DNA of 64,000 nt, taken from Actinomycetes bacterium. Its GTDB lineage: Bacteria; Actinomycetota; Acidimicrobiia; Acidimicrobiales; Acidimicrobiaceae. The notes beneath the pieces were generated by a model that was not told the origin of the DNA, did no database searches, and saw only the letters and a program-made list of their open reading frames with translations. The translations under genes were made by a program, and so were the position numbers. Each line of letters begins with the position of its first letter. Within the stretch, counting starts at the first letter, position 1. The stretch covers positions 1 through 64,000 of the forward strand of contig JAJZXI010000001.1 in the NCBI GenBank assembly GCA_021806545.1, in the 5' to 3' direction. This document shows, piece by piece, positions 6,998-45,237 of this stretch.

Positions 6998-9900
6998 TTA
7001 GTGCGGTGCTAGCGCCCCCGGCGGCACGACCTCCTTTGCGGCCGCGAGCGCCAACGGCGACAGCGCCGCCTCGCCACCGGCTGCAATTCGAGCCAGTTCA
7101 TCGCGCATAGCAGGCGACCAGAACCGTCGGAGATGGTTAACGATCCGAGCTGTGCCCTCCTGCTCACCCAAATACTCAAAAATATCTGCAATCTGGTTGG
7201 CCATTCTCACGACAGACTCGCCCGTTACGTTTCCTGAATGCGTCACTGACTGTTCGCCATCGAGTTGAGCAGCCTTCGCGCTCTTCGGGTAGACCTCCAC
7301 AGCCGTAACCTTGTACTCCGGACAGTTCGTTGCCCAGTCCGAGAACTCGGTCGTCACCAAATTCGCAGCGTCACCAGGGAAATGGAAAGTGGTGTAGACG
7401 ACCCCTTGAGGCACACGATCGGTGATATGGGCATGTAAGCTCGTCTCACCCACCCGACTAGCCAGGCTAACCAGGGTGCCCTCTGCAATTCCACGCTCTT
7501 CCGCATCAAAGGGGTGAATGTCGAGCACGTCCTCACCATGCCACCGCAGGTTCTCGGTGCGCCGTGTCTGAGCGCCGACATTGTATTGGCTCAAAATACG
7601 TCCGGTGGTGAGAATGAGGGGGAACCGACGATTCGCACGCTCGGGCGTAGCGACGAACGGCGTCTCCGTGAAGTGACCCTTGCCACGTACAAATGAGCCA
7701 ACATGCATGACGGGTGTTCCCAGCGGAGCCTTCTCATTGCACGGCCATTGAACACTGCCGACCTTGTCGAGCAGATCGAAGGAGACACCAGAGAACGCTG
7801 GGGTAGTGCGCGCAATCTCATCCAGGATCTGTGAACTATTCTCGTAGTGCATTGGATAGCCCATAGCGTTGGCAAGCTCACAAACGGCCTGCCACTCGTG
7901 CTTGCCGTTGCGCGGCTGCATGACAGGGCGAACCCGGTTTATCCGACGCTCAGCGTTGATAAAGGTCCCGTCCTTCTCGAGGAATGAGGTTCCCGGCAAG
8001 AACACGTGAGCATAAGCCGCCGTCTGATTGATGAACAGATCCTGGACGATCAAGAGTTCAAGCGACGACAGAGCCTTGGCAACATGCTTGCTGTTGGGGT
8101 CTGACTGCGCGATGTCCTCGCCTTGAACAAACAATCCCTTGAAATGTCCGTCGATCGCAGCGTCGAACATGTTGGGGATCCGCAGCCCTGGTTCGTTGTC
8201 CAGCGTACGACCCCACTCCTTCTCGAAAATCGCCCGCACGCTGTCATCGGAGACATGTCGGTACCCGGGGAATTCATGGGGGAACGAGCCCATATCACAC
8301 GATCCCTGAACATTGTTCTGTCCCCGAAGTGGGTTCACCCCCACCCCTTCTCGGCCTAGGTTGCCAGTCGCCATCGCCAGATTCGCAAGCGCCATCACCA
8401 TCGTCGATCCCTGAGAATGCTCCGTCACACCGAGTCCGTAGTAGATCGTTGCATTCGGCGCGGTAGCATACAGCCGCGCTGCGGCACGCACATCCTCCGC
8501 AGGAACTCCCGTGACAGAGGCCAGTGCCTCCGGACTATTCTCGGGACGAGCCGCGAACTCGGCCCAGGCGGCGAAACTATCGGCCTCGCACCGCTCAGCC
8601 ACAAACGACTCATCCACCAGCCCCTCCGTCACCACCACATGGGCGAGGGCATTCATCAACGCAACGTTGGTACCGGGGTGCAGCTGCAGATGATGTGCTG
8701 CATCAACGTGCGGCGTTCGCACGAGGTCAATCCGACGGGGGTCGGCCACGATCAGCTTGGCTCCCTGGCGCAGACGCCGCTTCATACGCGATGCAAAGAC
8801 CGGGTGCGCATCCGTCGGATTAGCACCGATGAGCAGGATGACGTCTGCCTGATCGACCGAACGGAAATCTTGCGTCCCCGCAGAGGTCCCGAACGCCTGG
8901 CTCAGACCGTAGCCGGTAGGAGAATGGCAAACACGAGCACAGGTATCGGTATTGTTGTTGCCAAAGGCGGCTCGTACCATTTTCTGGACGGTGTAGACCT
9001 CCTCATCCGTGCACCGTGATGAGGTAATCGCCCCGATCGAAGCGACGCCATGGCGGCTCTGAATATCCTTCAAACGCGTCGCAGCATACGAGATGGCCTC
9101 GTCCCATGACACCTCGCGCCACGGGTCGGTGTACGCCTCTCGAATCATCGGGTGGAGGACCCTGTCCTTGTGTGTCGCGTACCCCCAAGCAAAACGGCCC
9201 TTCACGCACGAATGCCCCTCATTCGCACCGCCATCCTTGTACGGCACCATCCGTACAACCTGGTCACCTCGCAGCTCTGCTTTGAAAGAACACCCGACAC
9301 CACAGTAGGCGCAGGTGGTGATCACGGTGCGGCGGGGTACACCGAGTGAGATAACCGACTTCTCCTCGAGCGTTGCCGTTGGGCAGGCCTGAACACATGC
9401 GCCACACGAGACACACTCTGAATCGAAGAAATCCCTTCCACCCGTCGCAACCGTTGATCCAAATCCACGACCCGCTATCGTAAGAGCGAACGTACCTTGT
9501 ATCTCATCACACGCGCGTACACACCGCGAACAGACGATGCATTTGGAGGGGTCAAAGCGAAAATATGGGTTGGAATCGTCAGCCGGTGCATCGAAATGAT
9601 TGTCACCGGCGTAGCCGTACCGAACATCTCGAAGGCCAACGGCCCCGGCCATCTCCTGAAGCTCACAGTCGCCGTTGGCTGCACAAGTAAGGCAATCGAG
9701 CGGATGATCGGAGATATACAGCTCCATTACTCCTCGACGGAGCTTCTCGAGCCGTGGTGTCTGGGTCGAGATGCGCATCCCGTCAGCAACTGGCGTCGTG
9801 CACGACGCCGGAGTCCCTCGAACCCCCTCGATCTCGACAAGACACAACCGGCAAGACCCGAAGGCCTTGAGGCGGTCGGTCGCGCACAGCTTCGGCACGT

Positions 9901-10039
9901 CGACACCACCGATGGCGGCTGCCCGCATGACCGACGTGCCTGCTGGAACACTGACATCAATACCATCGATCTCGACATGCACGATGGTCTCTGACTTGCT
10001 CTCACTAGTCCCCAGATCGTGCTCTTTGAGTAACGTCAC
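6998..10039 (-). CDS. fdsA: NAD-dependent formate dehydrogenase alpha subunit fused to delta subunit (FdsA-FdsD)
   Basis: Catalytic subunit oxidising formate to CO2 at a bis-pyranopterin Mo or W site. I place the start at the GTG at 10039, preceded by GAGGAG and 19 bases after the fdsB stop; this gives 1013 residues. In order: a 2Fe-2S ferredoxin domain (Cys52, 63, 66, 80), a His/Cys-ligated cluster (His112, Cys116, 119, 125), two 4Fe-4S sites (Cys167-177 and 209-219), the cluster motif CAYCGVGC near 243, then the molybdopterin oxidoreductase domains. The metal ligand is cysteine, not selenocysteine, in TCARVCHSPTG (about residue 371). The last 70 residues, from VRMANQIADIFEYLG through HLRRFWSPAMRDEL, resemble the separate FdsD delta subunit and are fused here. 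Confidence 0.93.
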   Translation of the reverse strand: MTLLKEHDLGTSESKSETIVHVEIDGIDVSVPAGTSVMRAAAIGGVDVPKLCATDRLKAFGSCRLCLVEIEGVRGTPASCTTPVADGMRISTQTPRLEKLRRGVMELYISDHPLDCLTCAANGDCELQEMAGAVGLRDVRYGYAGDNHFDAPADDSNPYFRFDPSKCIVCSRCVRACDEIQGTFALTIAGRGFGSTVATGGRDFFDSECVSCGACVQACPTATLEEKSVISLGVPRRTVITTCAYCGVGCSFKAELRGDQVVRMVPYKDGGANEGHSCVKGRFAWGYATHKDRVLHPMIREAYTDPWREVSWDEAISYAATRLKDIQSRHGVASIGAITSSRCTDEEVYTVQKMVRAAFGNNNTDTCARVCHSPTGYGLSQAFGTSAGTQDFRSVDQADVILLIGANPTDAHPVFASRMKRRLRQGAKLIVADPRRIDLVRTPHVDAAHHLQLHPGTNVALMNALAHVVVTEGLVDESFVAERCEADSFAAWAEFAARPENSPEALASVTGVPAEDVRAAARLYATAPNATIYYGLGVTEHSQGSTMVMALANLAMATGNLGREGVGVNPLRGQNNVQGSCDMGSFPHEFPGYRHVSDDSVRAIFEKEWGRTLDNEPGLRIPNMFDAAIDGHFKGLFVQGEDIAQSDPNSKHVAKALSSLELLIVQDLFINQTAAYAHVFLPGTSFLEKDGTFINAERRINRVRPVMQPRNGKHEWQAVCELANAMGYPMHYENSSQILDEIARTTPAFSGVSFDLLDKVGSVQWPCNEKAPLGTPVMHVGSFVRGKGHFTETPFVATPERANRRFPLILTTGRILSQYNVGAQTRRTENLRWHGEDVLDIHPFDAEERGIAEGTLVSLASRVGETSLHAHITDRVPQGVVYTTFHFPGDAANLVTTEFSDWATNCPEYKVTAVEVYPKSAKAAQLDGEQSVTHSGNVTGESVVRMANQIADIFEYLGEQEGTARIVNHLRRFWSPAMRDELARIAAGGEAALSPLALAAAKEVVPPGALAPH

Positions 10040-10058
10040 GGACTTCTCCTCTAGCTCA

Positions 10059-11636
10059 CTAACTCGTACCCTGGCCACCTGCATCAGACACGCCAACAAC
10101 CGGTGACCGATGGAAATCATCCCTAAAGTGGTGAAGGGCGCTCCGAACGGGCATCGGGGTCAAGGAGCCCATCGCACACAGGGAGCCACTCACCATCACC
10201 TCACAGAGATCCTCAAGGAGCTCAAGATTCGCCTCACGCTGATCACCTGCAATGATGCGATCAATCACCTCAACGCCCCGAACCGCGCCCAGGCGGCAAG
10301 GAGTGCACTTGCCGCAGGACTCCTCGGCACAGAACTCCATGGCAAAGCGCGCCTGCCGCGCCATGTCAACCGTCTCGTCAAAGACCACAACACCGCCATG
10401 TCCAACCATGGCATCGATCGCCCCAAAGCTCTCATAATCTATCGGGACGTCGAAGGCGGCAGAAGGCAGATAGGCGCCAAGCGGTCCGCCAACTTGGGCG
10501 GCCCGAACGGACCGGCCGGAGCGTGTTCCGCCACCAAAGTCGTCCACCAGCGTGCTGAGAGTGACTCCAAACGGTAACTCGACAATCCCCCCGTGAGCGA
10601 CATTGCCCCCGATTTGAAACACCTGCGTTCCCCGTGAGCGCCCAACCCCGAACGACTGATATCTCGCTGGCCCATCGGCAATGATACGCGGCACCGAGGC
10701 CAGCGTCAGCACATTGTTGATCACCGTAGGACGATCAAAGAGCCCGGAATGCGCTGGCAGTGGGGGCTTCGCTCGCACCATGCCCCGGCGGCCCTCAAGG
10801 CTTTCGAGCATTGCCGTCTCTTCACCGCAGATGTAGGAGCCTGCGCCCACCCGAACCGTCAGCTCGAACCTGTGCGGCGATCCGAGGATGTTCGATCCCA
10901 ACCATCCACGCAGGTAAGCGACCTCGATAGCGGTGCGCATAGTAGCAATGGCATCGGGATACTCCGATCGGACATAGACAAAACCCTCGGTAGCACCGGT
11001 CGCGAGGCCCGCGATGATGATCCCTTCGATGAGACTGAATGGACTACCCTCCATCAGCATCCTGTCTGCGAAGGTGCCGCTATCGCCCTCATCAGCGTTG
11101 ACGCAGACAAACTTCACGTCCTCGGTTGGGGTGGTTCGCACCGTCTCCCACTTGATTCCGGTTGGGAATCCTGCCCCGCCACGACCTCGAAGTCCTGACT
11201 CCGTCACCGTCTCAACGATGGTCTCCGGCGCCATGGTGAGCGCAGCACGCAGCCCCGATAGCCCACCATGAGCCTCATAATCCTCAGGCGAGAGTGGATC
11301 GAGCACACCGACCAGCTCAAACGTGTACCGACTTTGGCGTGCAAGCCAAGGGATCTCCTCGGTCGGACCCAGGTAAAGCCGATGATCGGCACCGGCGAAG
11401 AGACCGGCACGCACGAGATCCTCGACGTCCTCAACAGACACCGGACCATAGGCCAACCGACCGCGATCCGTCTGAACCTCGACGAGCGGCTCCAGCCACA
11501 ACATCCCACGCGATCCATTGCGCACCACGGTGACCGGTATCTCATGGGCCTCGGCGGCTCGGCGTATCGCCTCAGCCACCTCATCGGCGCCCACCGAACG
11601 CGCAGCCGAATCGATCGGAACGAAAACTGTCGTCAT
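10059..11636 (-). CDS. fdsB: NAD-dependent formate dehydrogenase beta subunit (FMN, NAD-binding)
   Basis: A NuoF-like flavoprotein of about 525 residues passing electrons from the alpha subunit to NAD+. Residues 1-120 form the thioredoxin-like N-terminal region usual in FdsB, followed by the FMN/NADH fold with GRGGAGFPTGIKWE, and a 4Fe-4S motif ESCGKCTPCRLG near the C terminus. The ATG at 11636 is preferred; a TTG at 11651 overlaps the region just after the fdsG stop. It sits between fdsG and fdsA with very short gaps. The soluble type, with no membrane anchor gene nearby, is inferred from the subunit set. Confidence 0.93.
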   Translation of the reverse strand: MTTVFVPIDSAARSVGADEVAEAIRRAAEAHEIPVTVVRNGSRGMLWLEPLVEVQTDRGRLAYGPVSVEDVEDLVRAGLFAGADHRLYLGPTEEIPWLARQSRYTFELVGVLDPLSPEDYEAHGGLSGLRAALTMAPETIVETVTESGLRGRGGAGFPTGIKWETVRTTPTEDVKFVCVNADEGDSGTFADRMLMEGSPFSLIEGIIIAGLATGATEGFVYVRSEYPDAIATMRTAIEVAYLRGWLGSNILGSPHRFELTVRVGAGSYICGEETAMLESLEGRRGMVRAKPPLPAHSGLFDRPTVINNVLTLASVPRIIADGPARYQSFGVGRSRGTQVFQIGGNVAHGGIVELPFGVTLSTLVDDFGGGTRSGRSVRAAQVGGPLGAYLPSAAFDVPIDYESFGAIDAMVGHGGVVVFDETVDMARQARFAMEFCAEESCGKCTPCRLGAVRGVEVIDRIIAGDQREANLELLEDLCEVMVSGSLCAMGSLTPMPVRSALHHFRDDFHRSPVVGVSDAGGQGTS

Positions 11637-11652
11637 GCTACCAACCAACAAC

Positions 11653-12135
11653 TCACAAGTATGGAGCCAAAAACTCGTCCAATGTCGCCTCGTCTAAGCG
11701 ACCAACCAAACGTCCATCGATCACGCCCGACGGCCCCAGCGCGCAGTTTCCAAGACAGAACACCTGATCCAAGGAGACGCGGCCGTCCTCGCTCGATTCA
11801 CCAACTCCCACCCCGAGACGCTCGCACGCGTGAGCGACAAGGCCCTCCGCGCCCACAGACTGACACGCCTCTCCCCGACACAGCCGTATGGTCGCCTGCG
11901 CAGGAGGCTGTCGGCGAAAATCCCGGTAAAAACTGACCACACCCAGCACTTCTGCGCGAGAGAGGTTCAGTACATCCGCAATCGGGGCGATAGCGGTGTC
12001 ATCCACGTACCCCAACTCCTGCTGCACTGAGTGCAGAATCTCGAGAAGCGGACCACGGGCGTGGGCTCCCTCTTCAGCCAAATCTCGGACTCGTCCCACA
12101 TCATAGGCAGAAGACTGCTCTGTGCTAGCCGTCAC
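11653..12135 (-). CDS. fdsG: NAD-dependent formate dehydrogenase gamma subunit (2Fe-2S)
   Basis: A NuoE-like protein with a thioredoxin fold that holds one 2Fe-2S cluster through Cys residues in LCRGEACQSVGA and FCLGNCALGP. The helical N-terminal half (GPLLEILHSVQQELGYV) is also typical. The frame opens further upstream, but the GTG at 12135 has AGAGGAG before it and lies downstream of the promoter at 12169-12197, so translation must start there. This gives 160 residues, normal for FdsG. It is the first gene of the fds operon. Confidence 0.92.
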   Translation of the reverse strand: MTASTEQSSAYDVGRVRDLAEEGAHARGPLLEILHSVQQELGYVDDTAIAPIADVLNLSRAEVLGVVSFYRDFRRQPPAQATIRLCRGEACQSVGAEGLVAHACERLGVGVGESSEDGRVSLDQVFCLGNCALGPSGVIDGRLVGRLDEATLDEFLAPYL

Positions 12136-12168
12136 GGGAACACTCCTCTCAGGAGATCTACTATCATA

Positions 12169-12197
12169 ACGATAGCGCGATTGGCGGTATTTGTCAA
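12169..12197 (-). promoter_or_regulatory. sigma-70-type promoter of the fdsGBA operon
   Basis: On the minus strand a perfect -35 TTGACA (12197-12192) is followed after 17 bases by TATCGT (12174-12169), four of six matches to the -10 consensus. It lies about 35 bases ahead of the fdsG GTG. The -10 overlaps a small inverted repeat (CTATC-GTTAT-GATAG) that could be a regulator site. Confidence 0.7.
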
Positions 12198-12231
12198 GGT
12201 GATCATCCTCATCATTCTTGCCAACTTTCAT

Positions 12232-12748: not shown

Positions 12749-12970
12749 TCATGACTGGCGCCGCCGCCGCTCCGCAAGGTTTTGCAGATTATACCAAGCG
12801 GTCACCGTTGCGAGAATTGAGAGACCAACGTAGACCACCAACAGGGCAATCAGCAGGTGTTCGAGATAGGTTGACCACCCGTTATAGCCATCCAGTACGT
12901 TGCGCAGGCTCGAATACGTCGCGAAGAATGCCCCGACTAGTGTCAACCTCACCCGCCACGGGAACTTCAC
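12749..12970 (-). CDS. small two-helix membrane protein at the end of the flagellar cluster
   Basis: A 73-residue protein with two hydrophobic segments near residues 8-20 and 36-60 and a strongly basic C terminus (ending ERRRRQS). Its GTG start overlaps the stop of the FlhF-like gene (GTGA), so the two are probably translationally coupled. No family is recognised. By position it may be a membrane partner of the flagellar export or placement proteins. Confidence 0.55.
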   Translation of the reverse strand: MKFPWRVRLTLVGAFFATYSSLRNVLDGYNGWSTYLEHLLIALLVVYVGLSILATVTAWYNLQNLAERRRRQS

Positions 12971-14145
12971 CGATCGTCCCCAGCGACCGAGGGGTGCAGG
13001 CGGGCGATACCCAACCGGGTCGCAATCGCATCATCTCCCGGGTACCAGAGGGCGTCGACTTGGCCGCAGGGACTCATCTCGCGCTCGAGGCGCGCAATCG
13101 TCTCCGTACCAGCGACGGCGACCACAACCGACATCATCGAATCAAGAAAAGATCCGCGCAGGAGGCGAAGCTGTCCGGCGTCCACCAGCACGCCGGTGCA
13201 TCCCCCATTTTGGGAGCTCTGCATCACCGATCGTGCTACCAGATTCGTAGAGCTCTGCATCGCCGCTGGAATCTCTCGACGACGTCGCGCGAGCACGAAG
13301 CGGTGTTCACCAGCGATGTCCAATTCGTTACAGATCTCTACAAAGCGTTCAACCGGGTCCGGTGCCGTTGGAACCACAATAGCGACAAGGTGGGTCGTGG
13401 GCGCCAAGCTTGCGGTCTCAGCGACAAACGGGAGGCCCCGAAGGTCAACCACCGGTGCCGCTCCTGCGAGATCCACCACCAGCGAATCGATTCGATCACG
13501 GAGAAAGGCACCTGGACTCATGGCGCGCCGAGCCGCCGCGACCAGCTCCTCCTCGGTTAGCTCCGCTCCAGGGGGACCGACGACACCAACGCACTCCTCA
13601 ACATCACGTTCGGTGGCTGGCGCGTGTCCCTCTCCGAGTCTGTCAACGACGGCAACAGCACCCAACGTCGGTGGCGTAGAGCCACCGACCCCTCCGCCAA
13701 CACGCATCGCTGACGGGTCCATCGAGGAGGGACTACTGGCCGTTGACCATTGCGGGGAAGCGATGGTCGCAAGCTTGGCTACCTTGCCATCCCGTCGAAA
13801 GATCTTCGGAACCGCCGGCGGGGAATCTACCGTACTCGCTCGCCCATACGTTTGTGCAAGGTCATCCTGCACGCTGCGATAGTCGGACACATCGGCCTCG
13901 TTTCTGGTCTTCGGCATCGGTTCCTGGGTGAGCAGGGCACTGCGCAGTGCGGCCGCGAATCCGGGCGCCGAGACGGGCGCCATCGGTGGCTCGACGACGA
14001 CGGTAAAACTTATGCGCTTCCCTACGAGGCCCGGCTTGCTCACTCGCTCGGCCGCGACCAGGCGCACCCCTTCGCCGAGTGTGGCTCGCGCTTTGGCGAG
14101 GGCCTCCTCAATCGACTTTCCATTAAACCGTAGCTGGTTCGACAT
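12967..14145 (-). CDS. FlhF-like flagellar protein lacking the GTPase P-loop
   Basis: A 392-residue protein directly after flhA, where flhF usually lies. The N terminus (RFNGKSIEEALAKARATLGEGVRLVAAERVSKPG) resembles the B domain of FlhF, the SRP-type GTPase that positions flagella. The middle is a low-complexity Pro/Ser/Ala linker (about residues 60-190), and the last 170 residues have alternating beta and alpha character. I cannot find a GxxGxGKT P-loop or the other G motifs anywhere, so it cannot act as a normal FlhF GTPase. The start is the ATG at 14145, inside the flhA tail. Confidence 0.6.
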   Translation of the reverse strand: MSNQLRFNGKSIEEALAKARATLGEGVRLVAAERVSKPGLVGKRISFTVVVEPPMAPVSAPGFAAALRSALLTQEPMPKTRNEADVSDYRSVQDDLAQTYGRASTVDSPPAVPKIFRRDGKVAKLATIASPQWSTASSPSSMDPSAMRVGGGVGGSTPPTLGAVAVVDRLGEGHAPATERDVEECVGVVGPPGAELTEEELVAAARRAMSPGAFLRDRIDSLVVDLAGAAPVVDLRGLPFVAETASLAPTTHLVAIVVPTAPDPVERFVEICNELDIAGEHRFVLARRRREIPAAMQSSTNLVARSVMQSSQNGGCTGVLVDAGQLRLLRGSFLDSMMSVVVAVAGTETIARLEREMSPCGQVDALWYPGDDAIATRLGIARLHPSVAGDDR

Positions 14146-16165
14146 CGCCAATCACTCCTATCTGAATCAACTTGAGTGAGGGAGCAAGCTCCCTCACGGC
14201 CAACACCGAGATCGATGCATCACCTGTGCGTAGCGTCTGGAAAAGCGCTCTGCGGATAGCAGGCATACACACAAGAACTGGCTCGTGACCCTCAATCTCC
14301 GCACGCATCTTTGCGGCTCGAATCTCCTCACGCAACCGCATGATCTCGTCCATCCCTATACCAAGGACGCGACGGCCATCAACCGTCACCAGACTCTCTG
14401 CAAAGCGCATCTCGAGCTGAGAGGAGAGATAGACCACGGCCAACCTGCCATCCTGGGCAAAGGCCGATGAGATCGAACCACCCAGAGCCTCCCGCGCCGC
14501 ATCGAGCAGGGCGTCAGGCTCCTTCGAGGATCGGTATCGGTCCACGATGGCCTCGACGATGGCCGGGAGATTGCGCACGGGCACCCGCTCATCGAGGAGC
14601 TCGCGCAAGACGCGCTGGATATCACCCATTGCGACTTGGGCGGTGTTGAGTTCGTCAACGACGACCGGAGCCACGCGCTTGAGGGCATCGAGCATCTCTT
14701 TGGTCTGCTGACGCGTGAGCAGTGAGCCCGCATGGTGCTGGACAACCTCCGAGAGGTGCGTGACGATGACCGATGACCGATCCACGACCGTGGCACCAAG
14801 TACCTGCGCCTGCGTCTTGTAGTCCGGTGGGATCCACCGGGCGCGAAGCCCGAAGACCGGATCGACCGTCTCCTCACCGGGCAGCGCATCCAGGTTGTCA
14901 CCGATAGCGAGCACCCGGTCGCGTGGAACCTTGCCACGACTGACCTCGGTCTCTGCGATCTTGATCACATACTCCGTGGGGCCGATATCGAGGTTATCGT
15001 GCGTCCTCACCGGCGGCAGGACGAAGCCGAGTTCGCCAGCGAGCTTGCGGCGCAGCCCCTTGACCCGTTCGAGCAGATCACCACCTTTGGAGGGGTCGAC
15101 AACGTCAAGCAGTTCGAAGCCCAACTCGAGCTCAAGGATCTCTACACCGACGACATCTTGAGCCGTCTCGGGAGCCGCCACCTCAGCCAGGGCCTCGGTC
15201 TTGATCTCCTCGGTGCGATCGGGTGACTTCGACACTCGCCATCCGATCACGAAAACCGCGCCGCCGACGAGTAGGAACGGGAGCTTCGGCAGACCAGGGA
15301 GCAGGCCGAGTGTGCCGATGATGCCCCCGGCTATCTGGAGAGCCACCGACTGCTTGAGCAGCTGCTGGAGCAGGTCAAGGCCAAAGTCCGCATCATTTGA
15401 GGTGCGAGTGACGACCAATCCGGTGGCGATGGAAAGCAACAGCGCCGGAATCTGGCTCACCAAACCGTCACCGACCGAGAGCAGCGAATAGGTATCGATC
15501 GATTGCGTGACCGAGAGGTGATGCTGGACGACCCCGACGATAAATCCGCCGATCAAGTTGATCACGGTGATGACGGCGGCAGCGATAGCATCACCTTTGA
15601 TGAACTTCGATGCCCCGTCCATCGCACCGTAGAAGTCAGCCTCTTTGGAGATGCGCGCTCGACGACGTCGTGCCTCGGCCTCATCGATATGCCCGGCATT
15701 GAGGTCCGCGTCGATCGCCATCTGCTTACCCGGCATCGCATCCAAGGTAAAGCGAGCGCCGACCTCGGCGACTCGGCCAGCTCCACTGGTGATGACCACG
15801 AACTGAATGATGAACAGGATCGCAAAAACCACCAGGCCTACGACTACCGAGCCACCGACCACGAAGTGGCCAAAACTCTCGATGACCGAGCCGGCATAGG
15901 CATGAAGGAGCACCAAACGCGTCGCCGAGACATTCAAGGCGAGCCTGAACATCGTGGCGATGAGGAGCACCGATGGGAAGGCTGCGAACTCAAGTGGATC
16001 GGTCACGCGGAGAGAAACACCAAGCACCACCAGTGCAAAGGTGATGTTTGCCGTGATCAGAATATCGAGAAGCTGTGACGGAATTGGAACGACCAGCATC
16101 ACGACAATCACGGCGATGCCAATGGGTACCGCTAGCGCCAAACGGCGAAGACGGGTACTCTCCAT
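14123..16165 (-). CDS. flhA: flagellar export gate protein FlhA
   Basis: Main export-gate protein of the flagellar type III secretion system, 680 residues. The N-terminal half has about eight membrane helices and the conserved FHIPEP-type cytoplasmic loop region (RFTLDAMPGKQMAIDADLNAG). The C-terminal half is the cytosolic ring domain that docks chaperone-substrate complexes. AGGGAGG precedes the ATG. It overlaps the FlhF-like gene by 23 bases and follows flhB after 120 bases, the longest gap in this part. Confidence 0.96.
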   Translation of the reverse strand: MESTRLRRLALAVPIGIAVIVVMLVVPIPSQLLDILITANITFALVVLGVSLRVTDPLEFAAFPSVLLIATMFRLALNVSATRLVLLHAYAGSVIESFGHFVVGGSVVVGLVVFAILFIIQFVVITSGAGRVAEVGARFTLDAMPGKQMAIDADLNAGHIDEAEARRRRARISKEADFYGAMDGASKFIKGDAIAAAVITVINLIGGFIVGVVQHHLSVTQSIDTYSLLSVGDGLVSQIPALLLSIATGLVVTRTSNDADFGLDLLQQLLKQSVALQIAGGIIGTLGLLPGLPKLPFLLVGGAVFVIGWRVSKSPDRTEEIKTEALAEVAAPETAQDVVGVEILELELGFELLDVVDPSKGGDLLERVKGLRRKLAGELGFVLPPVRTHDNLDIGPTEYVIKIAETEVSRGKVPRDRVLAIGDNLDALPGEETVDPVFGLRARWIPPDYKTQAQVLGATVVDRSSVIVTHLSEVVQHHAGSLLTRQQTKEMLDALKRVAPVVVDELNTAQVAMGDIQRVLRELLDERVPVRNLPAIVEAIVDRYRSSKEPDALLDAAREALGGSISSAFAQDGRLAVVYLSSQLEMRFAESLVTVDGRRVLGIGMDEIMRLREEIRAAKMRAEIEGHEPVLVCMPAIRRALFQTLRTGDASISVLAVRELAPSLKLIQIGVIGDVEPATV

Positions 16166-25140: not shown

Positions 25141-26358
25141 TCATAACCGTAGGTCGACCATCGAGTGGCTGACAGAAGGAGTCGGGACGACCTCATGGCC
25201 CGACACGACTCCCACCGCCGGACCTGGCGTCGATGTCTTCGACTGGTCTGCTTGGTTACCTCTGTGTTGCTCACCGAATCCGAGGTCCCGGTTCAGTTGG
25301 TTCGTGAGGTCCGGCAGCTGGGCACTGACCATACCTCGGGTCAAGGGGTCAGCTACTTGAATATGCACCTGGATCTCGCCACCGTTCGAGGTCACTTGGA
25401 GCTGGAGTTGCCCAAGGTCTTTGGGCTCCAGCGCAATGGTGATGGTCCTCGGCAGATTACCCTCTCTGACCACCTGTGCCACTACGGCGCCGAGCTGGCC
25501 AAGGGGCGTGGAGCCGACTGCTTCACCCGTCGTGGCCATCACCGGTGCGGTGGCCAAGGGCGCACTCTGCTGAGCATGCTCCAAGGCTCCGATCGCCGGC
25601 GACTGGTTACTCAATTGGGCGCCGAGGCGTAGTGCTGCACGCTGCCCGACACCAGCCGTGTTCCCCGCTCCGCTGCGGGTGGGTGCGGGCATCAGATTCA
25701 CATCCACAACGGGAGCGTTGGGCACGTGGCTCGGCCTTGCCACTATCGACGGCTTCGTCGGGGCCGCGGTCACTGGGGCAGCGCCTTGTGCACCTTCGGA
25801 GGCGGCGGTGGCGACGGCATTCGAGATCGCGAGCGCCTGGCCCTCACTACCTGGGTGAGAGCGTAGGGCTGTCGAAGGAACCGGCACAGAACTGGTCTGG
25901 CCCTCACTACCTGGGTGAGAGGCCGGCGAGCTCAAGGATATTGGCTCGGGTCGGCTCGGTGCGAGCGCAATCGATCGAGCTGCTTGCCCTCGCTGATCGC
26001 CCACCATCGTAGCGGGCAAGCTCATCTCAGCGCCAGGCGCTGGCGTGGCTGGCTGAATGGCAGCCAGGGAGGGCTTTGGTCGCGATGTTGGCGTTCGAAG
26101 AGTCGCCTCACGGACAGTAGCTTGCGCAGGTCCACCCTCATTGGCCGCAGTGGGTACAGTGGTGGGCACCGTAGGCAGGGGTTGCCTCCGCAGCGCCTGC
26201 TGGTGCAGATGAGCCTGGACCTGTTGAAAGTTTGCGCCCTCCTTTGTCGCACCACCCGAATGACGAGCGTTCTTTCGTCCACTCGATTTGGTCGCGTTGG
26301 CGCGAGACGGCACAACCGCGAGCAACGGTGTGCTGGCAGATTTAGCCACTGGTGACAT
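25141..26358 (-). CDS. fliK: flagellar hook-length control protein FliK
   Basis: A 405-residue secreted ruler protein. About 290 residues of Pro/Ala/Ser-rich low-complexity sequence are followed by the FliK C-terminal domain (TITIALEPKDLGQLQLQV, HIQVADPLTRGMV), which interacts with FlhB. The linker has a repeated HPGSEGQ unit from a 60-base periodic repeat at 25837-25860 and 25897-25920. It overlaps the preceding hydrolase gene by 17 bases. Confidence 0.9.
   Translation of the reverse strand: MSPVAKSASTPLLAVVPSRANATKSSGRKNARHSGGATKEGANFQQVQAHLHQQALRRQPLPTVPTTVPTAANEGGPAQATVREATLRTPTSRPKPSLAAIQPATPAPGAEMSLPATMVGDQRGQAARSIALAPSRPEPISLSSPASHPGSEGQTSSVPVPSTALRSHPGSEGQALAISNAVATAASEGAQGAAPVTAAPTKPSIVARPSHVPNAPVVDVNLMPAPTRSGAGNTAGVGQRAALRLGAQLSNQSPAIGALEHAQQSAPLATAPVMATTGEAVGSTPLGQLGAVVAQVVREGNLPRTITIALEPKDLGQLQLQVTSNGGEIQVHIQVADPLTRGMVSAQLPDLTNQLNRDLGFGEQHRGNQADQSKTSTPGPAVGVVSGHEVVPTPSVSHSMVDLRL
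25837..25920 (-). repeat. 60-bp spaced direct repeat in fliK
   Basis: A 24-base unit occurs identically at 25837-25860 and 25897-25920, exactly 60 bases apart. In frame it repeats the SHPGSEGQ peptide in the FliK linker. Such repeats can change linker length by slippage or recombination. Confidence 0.8.
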
Positions 26359-27457
26359 TTTGGCCTCCCATCAATCCCATGACTTCGTTGACATAGTTCT
26401 GCGTCTGGGCGTAAGGCGGTATCCCACCATACTGCTCGACCGCCCCATCGCCAGCGTTATAGGCGGCCAAGGCAAGCGGTACCGACCCAAATCTCGCCAA
26501 CTTCTGCGAGAGCAGCTCAGCCGCCCCATAGATCGCCTGTGTCGGATCCATCGGGTTGACTCCGAGCGATGCGGCGGTCTGTGGCATGATCTGCATAATT
26601 CCCTCAGCACCCGCCGACGAAACCGCTGAAGGGTTCATTCCCGACTCTGCCGTCGCGACCGAGGCGAGAAGGTTCTGTGGAAGGTGGTAAGCCTGCGTCG
26701 CGGCGGCAAAGACCGGCGCGAGGTTACTCGGAGCGGCGACCGATCCCACCGGCCCATCGGTTGGCGCAACGTTGCGGATCTCAGTTGGAGATCCGACTGG
26801 TTGGATCTGCACCGTCTGGCCGGTTTGCGGTGCGTCGACCATGTAGCCATTGCCAAGATAGATACCAACGTGATACGCCGGGTTCCCGTAGAAGACCAGA
26901 TCACCCGGTTGGGCCTGGGCAAGCGACGCCACTTTAGTCCCCACCTGTTGCTGTTGGTCGGCCACTCTCGGCAGATCGATACCTGCCTGGCCATAGGCCC
27001 ACTGGACCAGGCCCGAGCAGTCAAAGCCGGTTGTAGGCGACGAACCCCCCCAGACGTAGGGGACACCGACCTCCCCGAGTGCATTGGCGAGTGCCTGGGT
27101 AATGGGTGACGGTGTGGAGCCTGAGCTTGGTGCACTGGGGGCGATCGCCGCGGAGGCCGTCAGAGCCGGTGCACTCACGGAAGCGGGCGATGATCCGCCG
27201 GTCACGCCGTTCGCCAGGGGCACGCCAGAGCTGAGTCCTGCCGCGAGTGACGGAGCCGCACTGGTGCCCAAGGTGGCGGAGGTACTCGTCGTCGTCGTTG
27301 CCTTGGGATCGAGAATCGCACCGATCGTCGACTGCACCTGATTCAACGTCTGGAGAAACGCACTCGGGCCATTTGAGGTAACGGTTTGGCTGGCCAACTG
27401 GTTAAAGGCGTTGGAGAGGTCGGTGAGCGCGGGCAGGGTGGAGGGGATTGCGTTCAT
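26342..27457 (-). CDS. flagellar NlpC/P60 endopeptidase-lytic transglycosylase fusion (FlgJ-like role)
   Basis: A 371-residue protein encoded between fliJ and fliK. After a 120-residue Ala/Ser/Thr-rich head it has an NlpC/P60 domain (GVPYVWGGSSPTTGFDCSGL with the catalytic Cys, HVGIYLGNGYMV with the catalytic His), then a soluble lytic transglycosylase domain (ASVATAESGMNPSAVSSAG with catalytic Glu, GIMQIMPQTAASLG, LALAAYNAG). It should cut both peptide and glycan bonds of peptidoglycan. There is no signal peptide, so it may leave through the flagellar export gate as FlgJ does. It overlaps both neighbours, which ties it to flagellar assembly. Confidence 0.88.
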   Translation of the reverse strand: MNAIPSTLPALTDLSNAFNQLASQTVTSNGPSAFLQTLNQVQSTIGAILDPKATTTTSTSATLGTSAAPSLAAGLSSGVPLANGVTGGSSPASVSAPALTASAAIAPSAPSSGSTPSPITQALANALGEVGVPYVWGGSSPTTGFDCSGLVQWAYGQAGIDLPRVADQQQQVGTKVASLAQAQPGDLVFYGNPAYHVGIYLGNGYMVDAPQTGQTVQIQPVGSPTEIRNVAPTDGPVGSVAAPSNLAPVFAAATQAYHLPQNLLASVATAESGMNPSAVSSAGAEGIMQIMPQTAASLGVNPMDPTQAIYGAAELLSQKLARFGSVPLALAAYNAGDGAVEQYGGIPPYAQTQNYVNEVMGLMGGQNVTSG

Positions 27458-29177: not shown

Positions 29178-29808
29178 GATGCCAACTCCCTAACTCGCTC
29201 ACCACCCGCTCGAAGGCCGTTGCGATGCGTGCGTCGAAAACCCGTGCGCCGGACTCAACCACAAGATCGTGGGGTCCAAACCCTTCGCCGACGACCACCA
29301 CAGCTTCAAGCCCCCGCTCGAGTAGCTGGGGCAGCAGCGATGCCTGCACCGCATCCAGGTTCTGCGCAGCCACCCTCACCAGGAAGGTCTCCTGCGTGGC
29401 GGCCGCCTCGGCCGTCTCCTCGATGATCTGGCGAATTCGCTCCAGTGGTTGGGCTATCTCGGTGCGGAGAATCCGCTCGACAAGCTCGAGTGCGAAGCCG
29501 ATGACGTCGGCCAACTCCACGGCAAACTGCTGCGCACGTGCCTGGTGCAGACCCCGGATCGCGCTATCGATGAGGTCATTGTTCAGGCGGGAGCGTGCAA
29601 GCTCCTCCTTCATCTCTCGATCGAGCATGGCCCGAGCGTGCTCGACACCGGCATCGAAGGCCTCAGCACGTACCGCCTCGATCTCCTCACGCCACTGGGT
29701 CGCCGACCGCGTCGGCACCGAGGCGCCAAAACCAATGTCTTCGAGCACGGTGTTGACCGAGGGAAGATCAAGGCGGATCACCTCCGGCTGGTTGGATCGC
29801 GAATCCAT
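29167..29808 (-). CDS. fliH: flagellar assembly protein FliH
   Basis: A 213-residue regulator of FliI with a long central helical region rich in Ala, Glu and Arg and a C-terminal FliH/V-ATPase E-like domain. Identified from composition and its place between fliG and fliI. Confidence 0.87.
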   Translation of the reverse strand: MDSRSNQPEVIRLDLPSVNTVLEDIGFGASVPTRSATQWREEIEAVRAEAFDAGVEHARAMLDREMKEELARSRLNNDLIDSAIRGLHQARAQQFAVELADVIGFALELVERILRTEIAQPLERIRQIIEETAEAAATQETFLVRVAAQNLDAVQASLLPQLLERGLEAVVVVGEGFGPHDLVVESGARVFDARIATAFERVVSELGSWHHDS

Positions 29809-30821
29809 CAGTTCACCAGCTCCTCGTCAGCTCGTGCGATCGTGATCTCGCCGGCAGCCTCGAGTTCGCGGACTGAACGCACAATACCGGCCTGCGCCGC
29901 CTCGACCGTAGAGAGGCGCACCGGTCCGAGAATTTCGATCTCTTCCTCGAGATCGAGTGCAGCTCGCTCTGAGATATTCCCCATTACCTTCGCTACCAGC
30001 GAGGGGGCAACACCCTTGAGGGCAACCGCCAAATCCTTCGGGCTTACCTGCCGCAATACTCGCTGGAGCGTGCGATCATCAAGCGCGAGCACGTCCTCAA
30101 AGACAAACATCTGCTCGCGGATACGATCCGCAAGCTCCGGGTCTACCGCGTCGAGATCCGAGAGGATACGACGCTCAGTCGTCTGGTCGATATTGTTGAG
30201 AATCTCGACAACAGAACTCAAACCGCTGTGCATCGCCACCGGCCCGGCCTTGGTCAGCCCGGCGAGCTTGCGCTGCAAGATGACGGCGGTCTGTTCGACG
30301 ATGATCGGATCCACGCGACTCAACAAGGCGATCCTGCGTGTCACGTCGGCACGGATCTCGTCGGGCATCGCCGCCATGACCTCTGCGGCCATCGTCGAGT
30401 TGACGTGCGACAGGATCAGGGCAACGGTTTGAGGATGCTCCTCCTGCAGGAAGGAGGCGAGCTGAAAGGACTCGACATGAGAGAGAAAAGAGAGTGGATT
30501 CTCTATCGAGCGCCCGGAGAACTGCGCAAGAACCTCGTCGGCCTCGTTCCTTCCCAGGCGAGCCGCGAGAATCTCACGGGCCGTATCCATGCCGCCCTGG
30601 CCAACGGTCTTGACAGCGATGACCGACTCGACAAACTCCTCCATCAACTCAGCGATCGTCTCCTTGTCAAGACTAGGCAGCTTGGCAATTTCGAGCGTCA
30701 GCGCCACCGCCTCGGTCTCGCTCATCGACCTCAGCACACGGGCTGCCAGCTCGGTACCAAGTTGCACCAGCACCGCCGCCGACTTTTGAATGCCAGTGAG
30801 ATCCTTGACCTGGGTTGTCAC
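29808..30821 (-). CDS. fliG: flagellar motor switch protein FliG
   Basis: A 337-residue C-ring protein that contacts MotA. The conserved middle domain (EEHPQTVALILSHV) and C-terminal charged ridge (MFVFEDVLALDDRTLQRVLR) are clear. Overlaps fliF by four bases and fliH by one. Confidence 0.96.
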   Translation of the reverse strand: MTTQVKDLTGIQKSAAVLVQLGTELAARVLRSMSETEAVALTLEIAKLPSLDKETIAELMEEFVESVIAVKTVGQGGMDTAREILAARLGRNEADEVLAQFSGRSIENPLSFLSHVESFQLASFLQEEHPQTVALILSHVNSTMAAEVMAAMPDEIRADVTRRIALLSRVDPIIVEQTAVILQRKLAGLTKAGPVAMHSGLSSVVEILNNIDQTTERRILSDLDAVDPELADRIREQMFVFEDVLALDDRTLQRVLRQVSPKDLAVALKGVAPSLVAKVMGNISERAALDLEEEIEILGPVRLSTVEAAQAGIVRSVRELEAAGEITIARADEELVN

Positions 30822-38161: not shown

Positions 38162-39178
38162 CTAGTCCAACAAAAGCTCCAAGATCTGGATCGCATTCAA
38201 CGCCGCGCCCTTGCGAAGGTTGTCTCCTGCTACAAAGAACGCGACTCCGTTGGCGGAGGAACGATCGCGACGTATCCTCCCAACGAGGACAGCGTCGGCT
38301 CCTGCGCACGCCAGCGGGGTAGGCAGACCAACGACCTTGCACCCTGGCTGTTGATCCAGCTCAGCTACGAGTCGCTCCACCCTCGGTTGATCGCGGCACT
38401 CCGCGAGAACGGCGATGCTATGACCCGTGAATACCGGTACCCGCACGCAGGTGGCGTGAACTTTGAGGTCCTTGAGTCCGAGAATCTTACGAGACTCATT
38501 GATAAACTTCTCCTCTTCGGAGGTGTCTCCATCGCGTAGCTCGCCCGCGAGTGGAATAACGTTACCCGCGAGCGTGGCCGGGAATTTTTGCGGTGGTGCG
38601 AACGCGACCGCAGCACCGTCGAAGGTCAATCGAACAAGATCAGGCCGTCGCAACTGCTCGTCCAGCTCGACTACCCCAGCCTTGCCAGCGCCAGAAGCAG
38701 CCTGATACGTCGAGACAATGACGCGTTCGAGACCAAAGAGTCGGTCGATCACAGCCAGCGGAGGCATGGCGATCATCGTCGTGCAGTTTGGGTTCGCAAT
38801 GATCCCCAATGGTCGACGCGCTGCATCCCCCGGATTCACCTCTGGGACGACCAGCGGCACCTCGCTATCCATACGGTATGCGGAGGAATTGTCGATCACA
38901 GTGGCGCCTGCCGCGGCGAATCTGGGGGCGTAGATCCGAGAGGCACTAGCCCCGATAGAGAACAGTGCGTAATCGATTCCCTCAAGATCCGCAACATCCA
39001 CATCCTCGACCTCGATCGTCTGTTGACCAAAGTTGATCGTCGATCCAGCCGAGCGAGACGAAGCAAAGAAGCGCAGACGCTCGAATGGAACCTTTCGTTC
39101 CTCGATGATCTGGCGCATCACGGTACCTACTTGGCCAGTCGCGCCCACGACGGCAAGTGTTCCAGCACTCCGTCTCAT
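38162..39178 (-). CDS. asd: aspartate-semialdehyde dehydrogenase
   Basis: A 338-residue enzyme reducing aspartyl phosphate to aspartate semialdehyde, NADPH-dependent, in the lysine/threonine/methionine pathway. N-terminal VVGATGQVG binds the dinucleotide; the catalytic Cys132 lies in ANPNCTT. It overlaps lysC by four bases, forming a two-gene operon. Confidence 0.95.
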   Translation of the reverse strand: MRRSAGTLAVVGATGQVGTVMRQIIEERKVPFERLRFFASSRSAGSTINFGQQTIEVEDVDVADLEGIDYALFSIGASASRIYAPRFAAAGATVIDNSSAYRMDSEVPLVVPEVNPGDAARRPLGIIANPNCTTMIAMPPLAVIDRLFGLERVIVSTYQAASGAGKAGVVELDEQLRRPDLVRLTFDGAAVAFAPPQKFPATLAGNVIPLAGELRDGDTSEEEKFINESRKILGLKDLKVHATCVRVPVFTGHSIAVLAECRDQPRVERLVAELDQQPGCKVVGLPTPLACAGADAVLVGRIRRDRSSANGVAFFVAGDNLRKGAALNAIQILELLLD

Positions 39179-40383
39179 AGCCCGAATGCCTCATGCAGTG
39201 CCTGCACAGCGACCTCGAGTTGGTCGGAGCGAATCACACATGAGATTCGGATCGCCGAGGTGGAAATCATCTCAATGTTGATACCATTGTTCGCTAAGGT
39301 CTCAAACATGGTTGCCGTCACGCCCGGGTGCGACTTCATGCCAGCCCCCACAAGGGAGACTCTGCCGATCGCATCATCGGCCACTACCTCACCAGCGTCC
39401 ACCTGCCGGGCAACCTCCTCGGTCACTCGACGCGCGAGTTCGAGGTCGACTTTCGGAGCGGTGAACGAGATATCCGTATGGCCTTCGATCGATGTGTTCT
39501 GAACGATCATATCTACGTTCACACCAGCATCAGCAATCACACGGAAGATCTGGGCTGCCACACCTGGCCGGTCCGGGACCCGCAACAGTGTGAGCTTGAC
39601 CTCGGTGGCATCATGGGAAATCGCACTCACCACTGCCTGCTCCATCGTCTCCTCCTCTTCAACAACCCAGGTCCCTGGCTCCCATGTGAAACTCGAGCGC
39701 ACGTGCAACGTGACGCCGTAATTGCGGGCGAACTCAACCGAGCGCAAGGCGAGAACTCGCCCGCCAGAGGCGGACAGCTCGAGCATCTCCTCAAAGGAGA
39801 TTCGCGGGATCTTGCGTGCGCTCGGCACTACTCTCGGATCAGCCGTGAACACCCCAGACACGTCCGTGTAGATCTCACAGACCGTCGCGCCCAAACTCGC
39901 CGCAATGGCGACCGCAGTGGTATCGGAGCCGCCGCGTCCCAGCGTCGTGACGTTCCGTTCGGTAGATACCCCCTGGAAGCCCGCGATCACCGGCACAACA
40001 CCAGCCGCAAGAGACGCCTTGATGCGGTCGGGTTTTATCTCGACGATCTTGGCCTTGGTATGGTCGGTGTCGGTGATAATGCCGGCTTGTGACCCGGTGA
40101 AGGACTCGGCGGCGACGCCGAGATCCGCGAGAGCCATACAAAGTAACGACACCGAAATGCGCTCACCAGCAGTCAAGAGCATGTCCATCTCCCTGGGTGG
40201 GATTGTGGTACTGACGTCTCCCGCGAGTCGTATAAGGTCATCGGTGGTCTTTCCCATGGCCGACACCACCACGACCACATCGTCACCGCGGCGTTTGGAG
40301 CGCGCGACATAGTCAGCCACCGTCCTGATCCGATCCGCATCAGCGACGGATGTGCCGCCATACTTCTGAATTATGAGAGCCAC
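39175..40383 (-). CDS. lysC: aspartate kinase
   Basis: A 402-residue enzyme phosphorylating aspartate, the first step of the aspartate amino-acid pathway. KYGGTSVADADRI is the kinase signature; two ACT domains for feedback control fill the C-terminal 140 residues (VPDRPGVAAQIFRVI and SHPGVTATMFETL). The start is a GTG. Confidence 0.95.
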   Translation of the reverse strand: MALIIQKYGGTSVADADRIRTVADYVARSKRRGDDVVVVVSAMGKTTDDLIRLAGDVSTTIPPREMDMLLTAGERISVSLLCMALADLGVAAESFTGSQAGIITDTDHTKAKIVEIKPDRIKASLAAGVVPVIAGFQGVSTERNVTTLGRGGSDTTAVAIAASLGATVCEIYTDVSGVFTADPRVVPSARKIPRISFEEMLELSASGGRVLALRSVEFARNYGVTLHVRSSFTWEPGTWVVEEEETMEQAVVSAISHDATEVKLTLLRVPDRPGVAAQIFRVIADAGVNVDMIVQNTSIEGHTDISFTAPKVDLELARRVTEEVARQVDAGEVVADDAIGRVSLVGAGMKSHPGVTATMFETLANNGINIEMISTSAIRISCVIRSDQLEVAVQALHEAFGL

Positions 40384-42315: not shown

Positions 42316-45237
42316 TCAGCCAAGCCTTTGGTGTAGCCAATCAACTTCCACTTGAGGTGGGCCGCTTCCGGCCAGCACCTCAGCACGGGCGAGCGCACGC
42401 TCCTGGCGCAGTCGAAGTGTGACCTCGTCGGTCAGCGAATCCACGAGTGCAGCCGTGAGCTCATCTTCATCAACGTCGAACCAGGACGACCCTCGAAAGT
42501 AGGGGGCCAATCCGGCTGGGATGGGCACTAGCGAACCAGGCACGAGCCATTGCTCTTCATTGACGACGTCACGATGACCTCCACTTGCGGGGGCGATGAT
42601 CGCACACCCAGCAGCCATCGCCTCCGCGAAGGGCAGTCCGTAACCTTCTCCTCTGGTTGGCAAGCAAAACACGTCGGCACTGAGATATAGGCTCTTTAGC
42701 TCCTCTGCCGACAGCGAGCCGGTAACGACCTCGAGTGCACCAGCTTCCGCAAGGCGCTCGAGTGTTCCACCCAGGCGGGCCCTGATCGTGGCGGCTTCTC
42801 GAACTTTCAGGACGAGTACCCCACGCCCGGTCGAGACTCTCGCACGCTCGAATGCGCGTACAAGAGCGTCGAGGTTCTTCCTAGGCTCGTCATTTGCTAC
42901 CGCCAAAACTCTGCCACTGGTACCCTCATGATCCCACCGCGCAAAGCGAACCGTTCCTCGATCGACCCAGAGTCGGACCGAGGGTGCCCAGACTCCAATG
43001 CGTTCACTAGGGACGCCTGCACTGGCCAGCACGTCAGCCGAGAAGCTTGAGAAGGTCCAAATGCGCTCATACTGTGCAAGAATGGCGACCAGACGGTGAG
43101 GGATCCCGTGTACCTCCCATGCGGTACGCACCAGTGACGCGGGCGGTGCGCCGATGGGTTCACCCAGCCAGACGAGTGGCAGATCATGAGCAACTATGGC
43201 GCTGGGACCCATCGGCTCGCCAAGACCGGCTACCTCTGTGCGAATACCTGCCGAATTCAGTTCAGCCACCCACAGGGCAGTAGCACGGCGAAAGCCACTG
43301 ATCTCATCGGGTACCGCGATGATGCCGAGCCGCGGTGTACGCACCTGGAGTGGAGCCGAAGCTCGGGGACGTCGTCTGGCAACCAGATATACATCAAGTG
43401 GGGCCAGCGGCGCAAGACTCCCCCCGATCGCAGGGTCCGCCTCAAATCCAGCCTCTCGAACCATGGCAGCAAGTGCCTCAACAGGATAGGGACGTCGGTG
43501 TGTCGGATCCAGCCAGAACACGCGACCGTGGACGGCGTCGACTTCGAAGTTGGGCGTTTGGATGACAAGTACGCCACCCGGACTCATGGCCTTCCACAAG
43601 GATCGCAGCAGGACGCCGAGAGCCTCTGGCTCTAGGTGTTCAACGATGTGGCCAAGGAAGGCGCCATCGATAGCGTCCGTCGCCATAGCCTCGGCCGCCT
43701 CGACAGCATCTGCAGTCACAACCTCAAATCCCTCGTCACGCAACGCTACCGCCCTAACAGGATCGAGTTCGATCCCAGTAGCCGCAATCCCAAGATACCG
43801 TAGCTCCCGCAGCATCGCTCCTTCACCACAGCCGACGTCAAGCACTCGACTCGCTGTCGCGAATAGCGGTGCGAGGAACCGTGCTACCCGCGATGTCGCT
43901 GCTAGATCGCCCTCGTTTGCATGCCATGAAGCGCGAAGTTGCGAACTGGTCGGGATAAGAGATCTGTGGGCTGCTCCGACCCACAAGTCTGCCGATGTGG
44001 CCGCGAGACGCGCAAGACGGCCAACTAAGTCCTCGGCGTCCGGCGTCGCCCTCGCAAGCTCAAGCGCACCATGACTGTCACCGAGATCGATGAGTGCACC
44101 AATACCGGGTGGTCCACCTTGTTGCACTCGGTCAACCCTGGACGTGAAAAAGTCTGTAGCCTCTGCGCCGGCCTCGAGTGTCGACACAATTTCCTCAAGC
44201 CGTTGTGCGCTGACATCCCAACTGTGTGTTAGCGCACGCGCGCGACGCTCAGACGCCGTGACCCAGAGATCTACCTCACGCCTGAGCAGGGCGCGAAACG
44301 TTGCGACCAACGCATCCTGCTCAACTTCGAGCTCCCAGGAGCGCCCGAGCGAAGGGCCATTGATTCCGTCGTAGAAGCCCTTCGGCGTCACCACCTTGGC
44401 ATCGAGCCTCAACGCAATCGTGTCGTCTACAAGACTGTCACTCACACCTCCGCGAGTTACTATCGGCAGCACACCCGTCGCCATGGCTTCAAGAATCGAA
44501 ACCCCGTAGTTCTCTGTTCGATACGGCGCAACCAGGACGTCCAGCCGGCCATACACGTCCCGAACACCTCCCGAAGCTATGATCTCGCTCCTCATGGCTA
44601 CACGAGGATGTTCCGTCAGCAAACGTCTGAGGATCGACTCGTCCTGATGGCCCAAGCCTCCGTCAAACTCTTTGAGGACGAACTCAATCTGTTCAAGTTC
44701 CTGATTCGACAGACGATTGAGCGCTCCGACAACGAGATCGATTCCTCCAGCAAAGCCGAGCTGGCCAACATAACCAACGACGAACTTGCCTTCTCTTGGA
44801 TCGGCATGCACATCGACCAACGGCCGAACCCCTATCGGGACTATGAACACCTTCCCCGGCTCCGCACCACCTTGAAGCCAGCACTGTTTGGCATGCGCTG
44901 AAGTCACCAATACTGCGTCCACGGTTCGCATACCCACCAGCCAGCTCGCTGGCACAGCACCTCGTGCGAACGGCTGGACAACCAAAAACATTCCAGACTG
45001 CGGGCGATCAAATACTGGCGGCCACATATGACGAATATGCACGTCGGGAGCATGATCTTGAAGGTCAAACGGCTCGATCCCCATCGTCTGCGCACTTATT
45101 GTAGCCTCTCTGATCGTTTGATCCCGTGAGATGACCCCTACGTCATGGCCCCGAGCTCTCAATGCGCCGGCCAACTCTAGATTGAAGATTCCACAGCTGT
45201 TATCGACTCGCGTTGAACCTTCAATGGCAACGTGCAT
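42316..45237 (-). CDS. glycosyltransferase-methyltransferase-glycosyltransferase fusion protein
   Basis: A 973-residue protein with three enzyme modules. Residues 1-350 form a GT-B glycosyltransferase of the GT4 type (LVAPYRTENYGVSILEAMATG is the donor-binding segment). About residues 440-610 form a SAM-dependent methyltransferase (VLDVGCGEGAMLREL, then HIVEHLEPEALG). Residues 620-960 form a second GT4 transferase (FCLPTRGEGYGLPFAEAMAAG). No signal peptide or membrane helix is evident. Such fusions occur in surface polysaccharide or glycoprotein synthesis. The N-terminal module and following linker are clearly related to the divergently transcribed gene at 45996. The acceptor is unknown; flagellin is only a guess from proximity. 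Confidence 0.88.
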   Translation of the reverse strand: MHVAIEGSTRVDNSCGIFNLELAGALRARGHDVGVISRDQTIREATISAQTMGIEPFDLQDHAPDVHIRHMWPPVFDRPQSGMFLVVQPFARGAVPASWLVGMRTVDAVLVTSAHAKQCWLQGGAEPGKVFIVPIGVRPLVDVHADPREGKFVVGYVGQLGFAGGIDLVVGALNRLSNQELEQIEFVLKEFDGGLGHQDESILRRLLTEHPRVAMRSEIIASGGVRDVYGRLDVLVAPYRTENYGVSILEAMATGVLPIVTRGGVSDSLVDDTIALRLDAKVVTPKGFYDGINGPSLGRSWELEVEQDALVATFRALLRREVDLWVTASERRARALTHSWDVSAQRLEEIVSTLEAGAEATDFFTSRVDRVQQGGPPGIGALIDLGDSHGALELARATPDAEDLVGRLARLAATSADLWVGAAHRSLIPTSSQLRASWHANEGDLAATSRVARFLAPLFATASRVLDVGCGEGAMLRELRYLGIAATGIELDPVRAVALRDEGFEVVTADAVEAAEAMATDAIDGAFLGHIVEHLEPEALGVLLRSLWKAMSPGGVLVIQTPNFEVDAVHGRVFWLDPTHRRPYPVEALAAMVREAGFEADPAIGGSLAPLAPLDVYLVARRRPRASAPLQVRTPRLGIIAVPDEISGFRRATALWVAELNSAGIRTEVAGLGEPMGPSAIVAHDLPLVWLGEPIGAPPASLVRTAWEVHGIPHRLVAILAQYERIWTFSSFSADVLASAGVPSERIGVWAPSVRLWVDRGTVRFARWDHEGTSGRVLAVANDEPRKNLDALVRAFERARVSTGRGVLVLKVREAATIRARLGGTLERLAEAGALEVVTGSLSAEELKSLYLSADVFCLPTRGEGYGLPFAEAMAAGCAIIAPASGGHRDVVNEEQWLVPGSLVPIPAGLAPYFRGSSWFDVDEDELTAALVDSLTDEVTLRLRQERALARAEVLAGSGPPQVEVDWLHQRLG

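Follow-up and report, generated by a model that had tools for sequence, protein, structure and literature searches.

We propose that the protein encoded directly after flhA in an acidimicrobial flagellar cluster is, almost certainly, a true descendant of FlhF that has turned into a pseudo-GTPase. In the reading that best explains the evidence as a whole, and which we consider probable, it would act as an adaptor independent of nucleotide. The stretch analyzed, hereafter the window, comprises the first 64,000 nucleotides of contig JAJZXI010000001.1 from an Actinomycetes bacterium (assembly GCA_021806545.1; source genome of 2.42 Mb, 95.5% complete), and the features relevant to this proposal are as follows.

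12749-12970, minus strand: gene for a 73-residue two-helix membrane protein, GTG start, coupled to the flhF-like gene
12967-14145, minus strand: flhF-like gene, coding for the proposed pseudo-GTPase FlhF of 392 residues
12988-13413, minus strand: vestigial G fold, about residues 245-386; AlphaFold2 (AF2) pLDDT about 80, SRP GTPases first in VIA-align, profile chain to FlhF
13030-13056, minus strand: G4 position, where by alignment DALWYPGDD replaces TKLD
13171-13191, minus strand: G3 position, where by alignment VLVDAGQ replaces DTAGR
13351-13374, minus strand: G1 (P-loop) position, where by alignment VPTAPDPV replaces GxxxxGKT
13414-13974, minus strand: low-complexity, fast-evolving linker, about residues 58-244; pLDDT mostly below 50, pN/pS 0.43
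13975-14145, minus strand: B domain with a FliG-interaction-domain-like module, residues 1-57; predicted strand-helix-strand-strand (AF2)
14123-16165, minus strand: flhA (PF00771, E=6e-242), directly upstream of the flhF-like gene
29808-30821, minus strand: fliG, with all three FliG domains (Pfam FliG_N, FliG_M and FliG_C), its product being the predicted target of the B domain

The flhF-like open reading frame is real: it opens with an ATG at 14145, 6 bases downstream of a TTG, closes with a TGA at 12967-12969, shares 23 bases with the 3' end of flhA and overlaps the start of the two-helix gene by 4 bases (GTGA), giving the order flhA, flhF-like gene and 73-residue membrane protein gene at the end of the cluster. 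FlhA was found in 69 of the 395 genomes of the window's class, and all 69 flhA regions were read; in two of them the contig ends too soon, G432 has no B-domain gene, and such a gene directly follows flhA at 66 of the 67 testable loci. An earlier note on this DNA was right to see the gene in the flhF position. Among the tested genes the window's flagellar cluster includes a single FlgE-type gene, FlgC, FliF, FliG and FliS, with flhA and more flagellar genes downstream; no FlgF or FlgG was seen among its tested ORFs, which fits the classes reported to lack FlgFG, namely Acidimicrobiia, Nitriliruptoria and Actinomycetia (PMC10746217), and of these we take the window's class to be Acidimicrobiia. 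Beside fliK within the cluster, a gene at 26342-27457 (minus strand) codes for an NlpC/P60 domain followed by an SLT transglycosylase domain and is likely a rod-related wall hydrolase. Genes for aspartate-semialdehyde dehydrogenase and aspartokinase (38162-40383, minus strand) directly adjoin the flagellin gene. Near the latter lie genes for a 973-residue protein with methyltransferase and glycosyltransferase domains (42316-45237, minus strand) and for a second glycosyltransferase (45996-47393, plus strand), suggesting possible flagellin glycosylation. After the flagellar cluster comes an operon (6998-12231, minus strand) that by reading, without a family search, resembles an NAD-linked formate dehydrogenase, with NuoF-like and NuoE-like parts and a large subunit with a NuoG-like N-terminus.

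Sequence libraries detect nothing in the window protein beyond its B domain. Its lone match to the NCBIfam FlhF model TIGR03499 (residues 6-96, E=0.0013) is weak, at 18.8 bits far below the curated cut-off of 174 bits, and a Pfam search of the protein returned no match. At the level of the family the domain is clear: TIGR03499 matches 19 of 21 relatives (best 3e-9), and over this domain the window clade and P-loop-bearing FlhF reach 85.6% when their profiles are compared, a reversed control reaching 0.3%. The FlhF-like B domain recognized in the earlier note holds up. Furthermore, a B-domain profile, which contains FlhF rows from deeper lineages, matched the FlhF fragment 9en1 in the PDB (E=4e-6); the full 21-row alignment used as a profile gave chance matches only. 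A weak Jag_N match occurs in one family member (E=0.096). By these sequence comparisons we take an FlhF-type N-terminal B domain, with its putative FliG-interaction module, to be present. No N domain is recognizable between the B domain and the G fold of the window protein (pLDDT <50); relatives align in part of this region. The flhF-like genes of two other loci are longer, coding for 816 (L118, G080) and 635 residues (L124, G436), the former with a long Glu/Arg-rich, coiled-coil-like stretch C-terminal to the B domain.

The C-terminal part escapes both Pfam and NCBIfam, and its assignment comes from structure prediction and from chains of profiles. AlphaFold2 modelled residues 238-392 alone, from five sequences, with a pLDDT of 81.5 and a pTM of 0.80. 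Foldseek alone left the family unresolved, ranking guanylate kinases first with no match below E=0.001; a second look with VIA-align resolved it, as ranks 1-37 are all FtsY, FlhF or Ffh/SRP54 (Z 10.1-8.1, 136-152 residues aligned) and the first non-SRP row falls at Z 7.5. When the full model was compared with known structures, Shewanella putrefaciens FlhF (8r9r) ranked first (Z 10.5, rmsd 3.5 over 148 residues). At the level of sequence, the class-wide FlhF-like profile aligns end to end with P-loop FlhF of the phylum at 98.3%, and the C-terminal parts alone do so collinearly at 51% (E=1.5e-4; reversed 0.2%). The window clade joins the class-wide C-terminal profile through a sister set, in steps of 97% and 95%, whereas no significant signal emerges when it is compared directly with P-loop FlhF (0.2%); the C-terminal link of the window clade to FlhF is hence transitive, through intermediate families, and structural. 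The modelled G fold of about 150 residues is retained, shrunken but collinear, and about 50 residues shorter than the G domain of FlhF. The earlier note had described an FlhF-like protein that lost its GTPase core; this remains right for the motifs and wrong for the domain itself, since structure prediction shows a diverged G fold that persists.

No P-loop, DTAG or TKLD motif is found in the window protein, in which that note too saw no G motif, or in any relative, and G1, G3 and G4 are absent from all 62 complete members of the class. A P-loop-like string, GTTQRGKS, in two relatives (L065 and L110) is located in the linker, outside the G fold. On the strength of its sequence we predict that the window protein does not hydrolyze GTP. 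It shares with FlhF (TIGR03499; S. putrefaciens 8r9r, Bacillus subtilis 2px0) the position after flhA, the N-terminal B domain and the C-terminal SRP-GTPase fold; unlike FlhF, it has no P-loop, G3, G4 or FlhG partner. The genome, 95.5% complete, holds no second FlhF: a search for SRP54 gave two full matches, side by side, which are FtsY and Ffh, and one weak match of 120 bases. FlhG is absent from the window, as the earlier note had it, and from the genome, where the best FlhG-like matches read as Mrp/ApbC, a ParA followed by ParB, and an ArsA-like ATPase. With the best six candidates per genome scored, canonical FlhF exceeded the cut-off in none of the 395 genomes of the class, in a search that detected the B. 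subtilis and Thermotoga maritima controls; a TIGR03499 match at 1e-27 in one genome (G196) reads as FtsY.

We then compared flhF loci across the phylum, where three grades can be distinguished: FlhF with FlhG and intact motifs, P-loop FlhF without flhG and with eroded G3 and G4, and a form with no motif. The deepest lineages have P-loop FlhF, and flhG adjoins flhF at 8 of 8 searched loci of flhG-bearing lineages, whose FlhF retains G1 in 14/14, G3 in 13/14 and G4 in 14/14. By exact motifs, P-loop FlhF without flhG retains G1 in 12/12, G3 in 1/12 and G4 in 3/12. A third set, outside the class, is as motif-less as the window's class. Beyond flhA, the loci outside the flhG-bearing lineages show no flhG over distances of up to 6.5 kb. 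When 60 FlhA rows are arranged in a tree, the P-loop-less lineages, together with three gene-less ones, form one side of a single branch (support 100/100), and the P-loop state changes once, a value as low being reached in 0 of 500 shuffles. The P-loop was lost once, on the branch leading to the window's class and its relatives, and the grades show that flhG and the G3/G4 motifs were lost before it. Three flhA-bearing genomes of the branch (G432, G564 and G773) have no B-domain gene after flhA, a 297-residue gene of another kind standing there in G432. No B-domain ORF was found after flhA in a deeper family (f95: G707, G529, G697 and G754), the regions read being short in G707, G697 and G754. 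A search with a narrower alignment returned four related loci, from MAGs labelled 'Actinomycetes' or 'Actinobacteria'. A published survey scored FlhF as absent from the later actinobacterial classes and reported that the branch also lost other flagellar parts (PMC10746217). We found no paper describing a pseudo-GTPase FlhF or a pseudo-GTPase among SRP GTPases.

Across six species of the window's genus pN/pS is 0.07 for the B domain, the most constrained part of the protein, 0.43 for the linker and 0.21 for the G fold, and by this sequence measure the gene is not decaying and both it and the G fold are under purifying selection. Such constraint on the G fold would also suit a domain dead as a GTPase whose pocket has been rebuilt, so as to bind a nucleotide or another small ligand, and which still serves as a switch. 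Within the window clade Pro264 at the G1 position (invariant across its 10 sequences), Asp322 at the G3 position (likewise invariant) and the RFVLARRRR and LRxSFL stretches are conserved, and these belong to the fold and the pocket region; however, which residues are conserved differs from one family of the class to the next, as would not be expected of a common binding site, and the canonical motifs are gone in 62/62 members, so we consider a retained switch unlikely. The almost universal overlap with flhA in the class raises the further prospect that the protein no longer takes part in flagellar placement but serves FlhA as an accessory at the export gate. The order flhA-flhF is found in deeper P-loop FlhF loci as well, indicating that the neighborhood is inherited, and constraint is strongest on the B domain, the FliG binder in Shewanella; an export-gate role therefore also seems improbable. 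It is very unlikely that the protein is an inert relic kept by its position in the operon: the loss of other flagellar parts from the branch (PMC10746217), the fast-evolving linker and the few lineages without a B-domain gene would agree with this, but neither the pN/pS values of the B domain and G fold nor the retention of the gene at 66/67 loci in many families is what a relic predicts. Replacement of the G domain by fusion to an unrelated Rossmann-like domain, for which the want of a direct sequence signal between the C-terminal part of the window clade and P-loop FlhF might speak, is highly improbable given the collinear chain through intermediate families and the 37 SRP GTPase rows ahead of any other fold.

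Returning to the pseudo-GTPase FlhF, we examined the small gene that follows it, which the earlier note had rightly described as a coupled two-helix membrane protein gene. The count admitted ORFs of 45-160 residues starting no more than 130 bases after the flhF-like gene, with two hydrophobic helices by hydropathy; it includes a background control and supersedes a strict earlier count (57/76). Such a gene is present at 53 of 62 loci of the class against a background of 7/237 (3%), at 8/14 other P-loop-less loci, at 9/11 P-loop loci without flhG and at 0/5 flhG loci. In the window protein helix 2 is strongly and helix 1 weakly hydrophobic, and its genome (G000) falls under the threshold because helix 1 is weakly hydrophobic throughout its genus. 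The P-loop-less branch has a single family of these proteins (its two halves compare at 90.2%; reversed 0.3-0.4%), and comparison with those of P-loop lineages gives 4.5-8.5%, that link being topological only. At some loci the gene is absent or replaced; read by eye, FliW takes its slot in G401 and G313 (L099 and L112). In the deeper lineages the slot after flhF is filled by FlhG/YlxH, a MinD-type ATPase, and here by the two-helix gene. Gammaproteobacteria, too, have a gene for a small membrane protein in the vicinity of flhF: FipA (DUF2802), an FlhF partner in Vibrio, is required there for normal FlhF localization (PMC11620751). FipA combines one helix with a cytoplasmic DUF2802 domain, whereas the two-helix proteins have no DUF2802 match and no Pfam match over the cut-off, and their gene overlaps the flhF-like gene; by analogy the two-helix protein may be a counterpart of FipA. 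That it anchors the pseudo-GTPase FlhF is plausible, at somewhat under an even chance.

In light of the above we posit a static tether that would work without nucleotide, with the B domain on FliG and the dead G fold on the membrane or a polar site, both contacts being such as could survive without GTP. By binding FliG the B domain, which is the FliG-binding part of FlhF in Shewanella, would recruit or stabilize FliF-FliG, the nucleus of the basal body. Having lost the GTP switch, the dead G fold would offer a docking surface, the foremost candidate for the docking site being the two-helix protein. A scaffold role, suggested in the earlier note, would fit a motif-less FlhF homolog, and we regard a FliG-binding scaffold as rather probable. 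In Shewanella FlhF keeps FliM/FliN off FliG and its GTPase is stimulated by FlhG, and in Pseudomonas aeruginosa it is the GTP-bound form of FlhF that binds FliG (PMC12713375). With neither GTP hydrolysis nor FlhG, release of FliG to FliM/FliN would here depend on competition or a partner, that is, on a trigger other than a GTPase cycle. Since GTP-bound FlhF binds FliG and GTP binding matters for FlhF in several species (PMC12826062), function free of nucleotide is not a given. More tentatively, we suggest as a possibility that this branch of the Actinomycetota places or nucleates its flagella by a nucleotide-free FlhF with a two-helix anchor in the place of FlhG, a static or competition-driven tether having replaced the GTPase/ATPase switch.

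Motif-less FlhF extends over an entire branch of the phylum, in which the small membrane protein gene is likewise conserved. Our analysis indicates, against the published survey (PMC10746217), that the later actinobacterial classes keep FlhF in a form missed by BLAST-based searches. The branch offers a natural experiment on which of the jobs of FlhF need GTP. The order of loss, flhG and G3/G4 and then the P-loop, suggests a path from GTPase to scaffold. The analysis also points to an undescribed family of membrane proteins as the likely new partner of FlhF.
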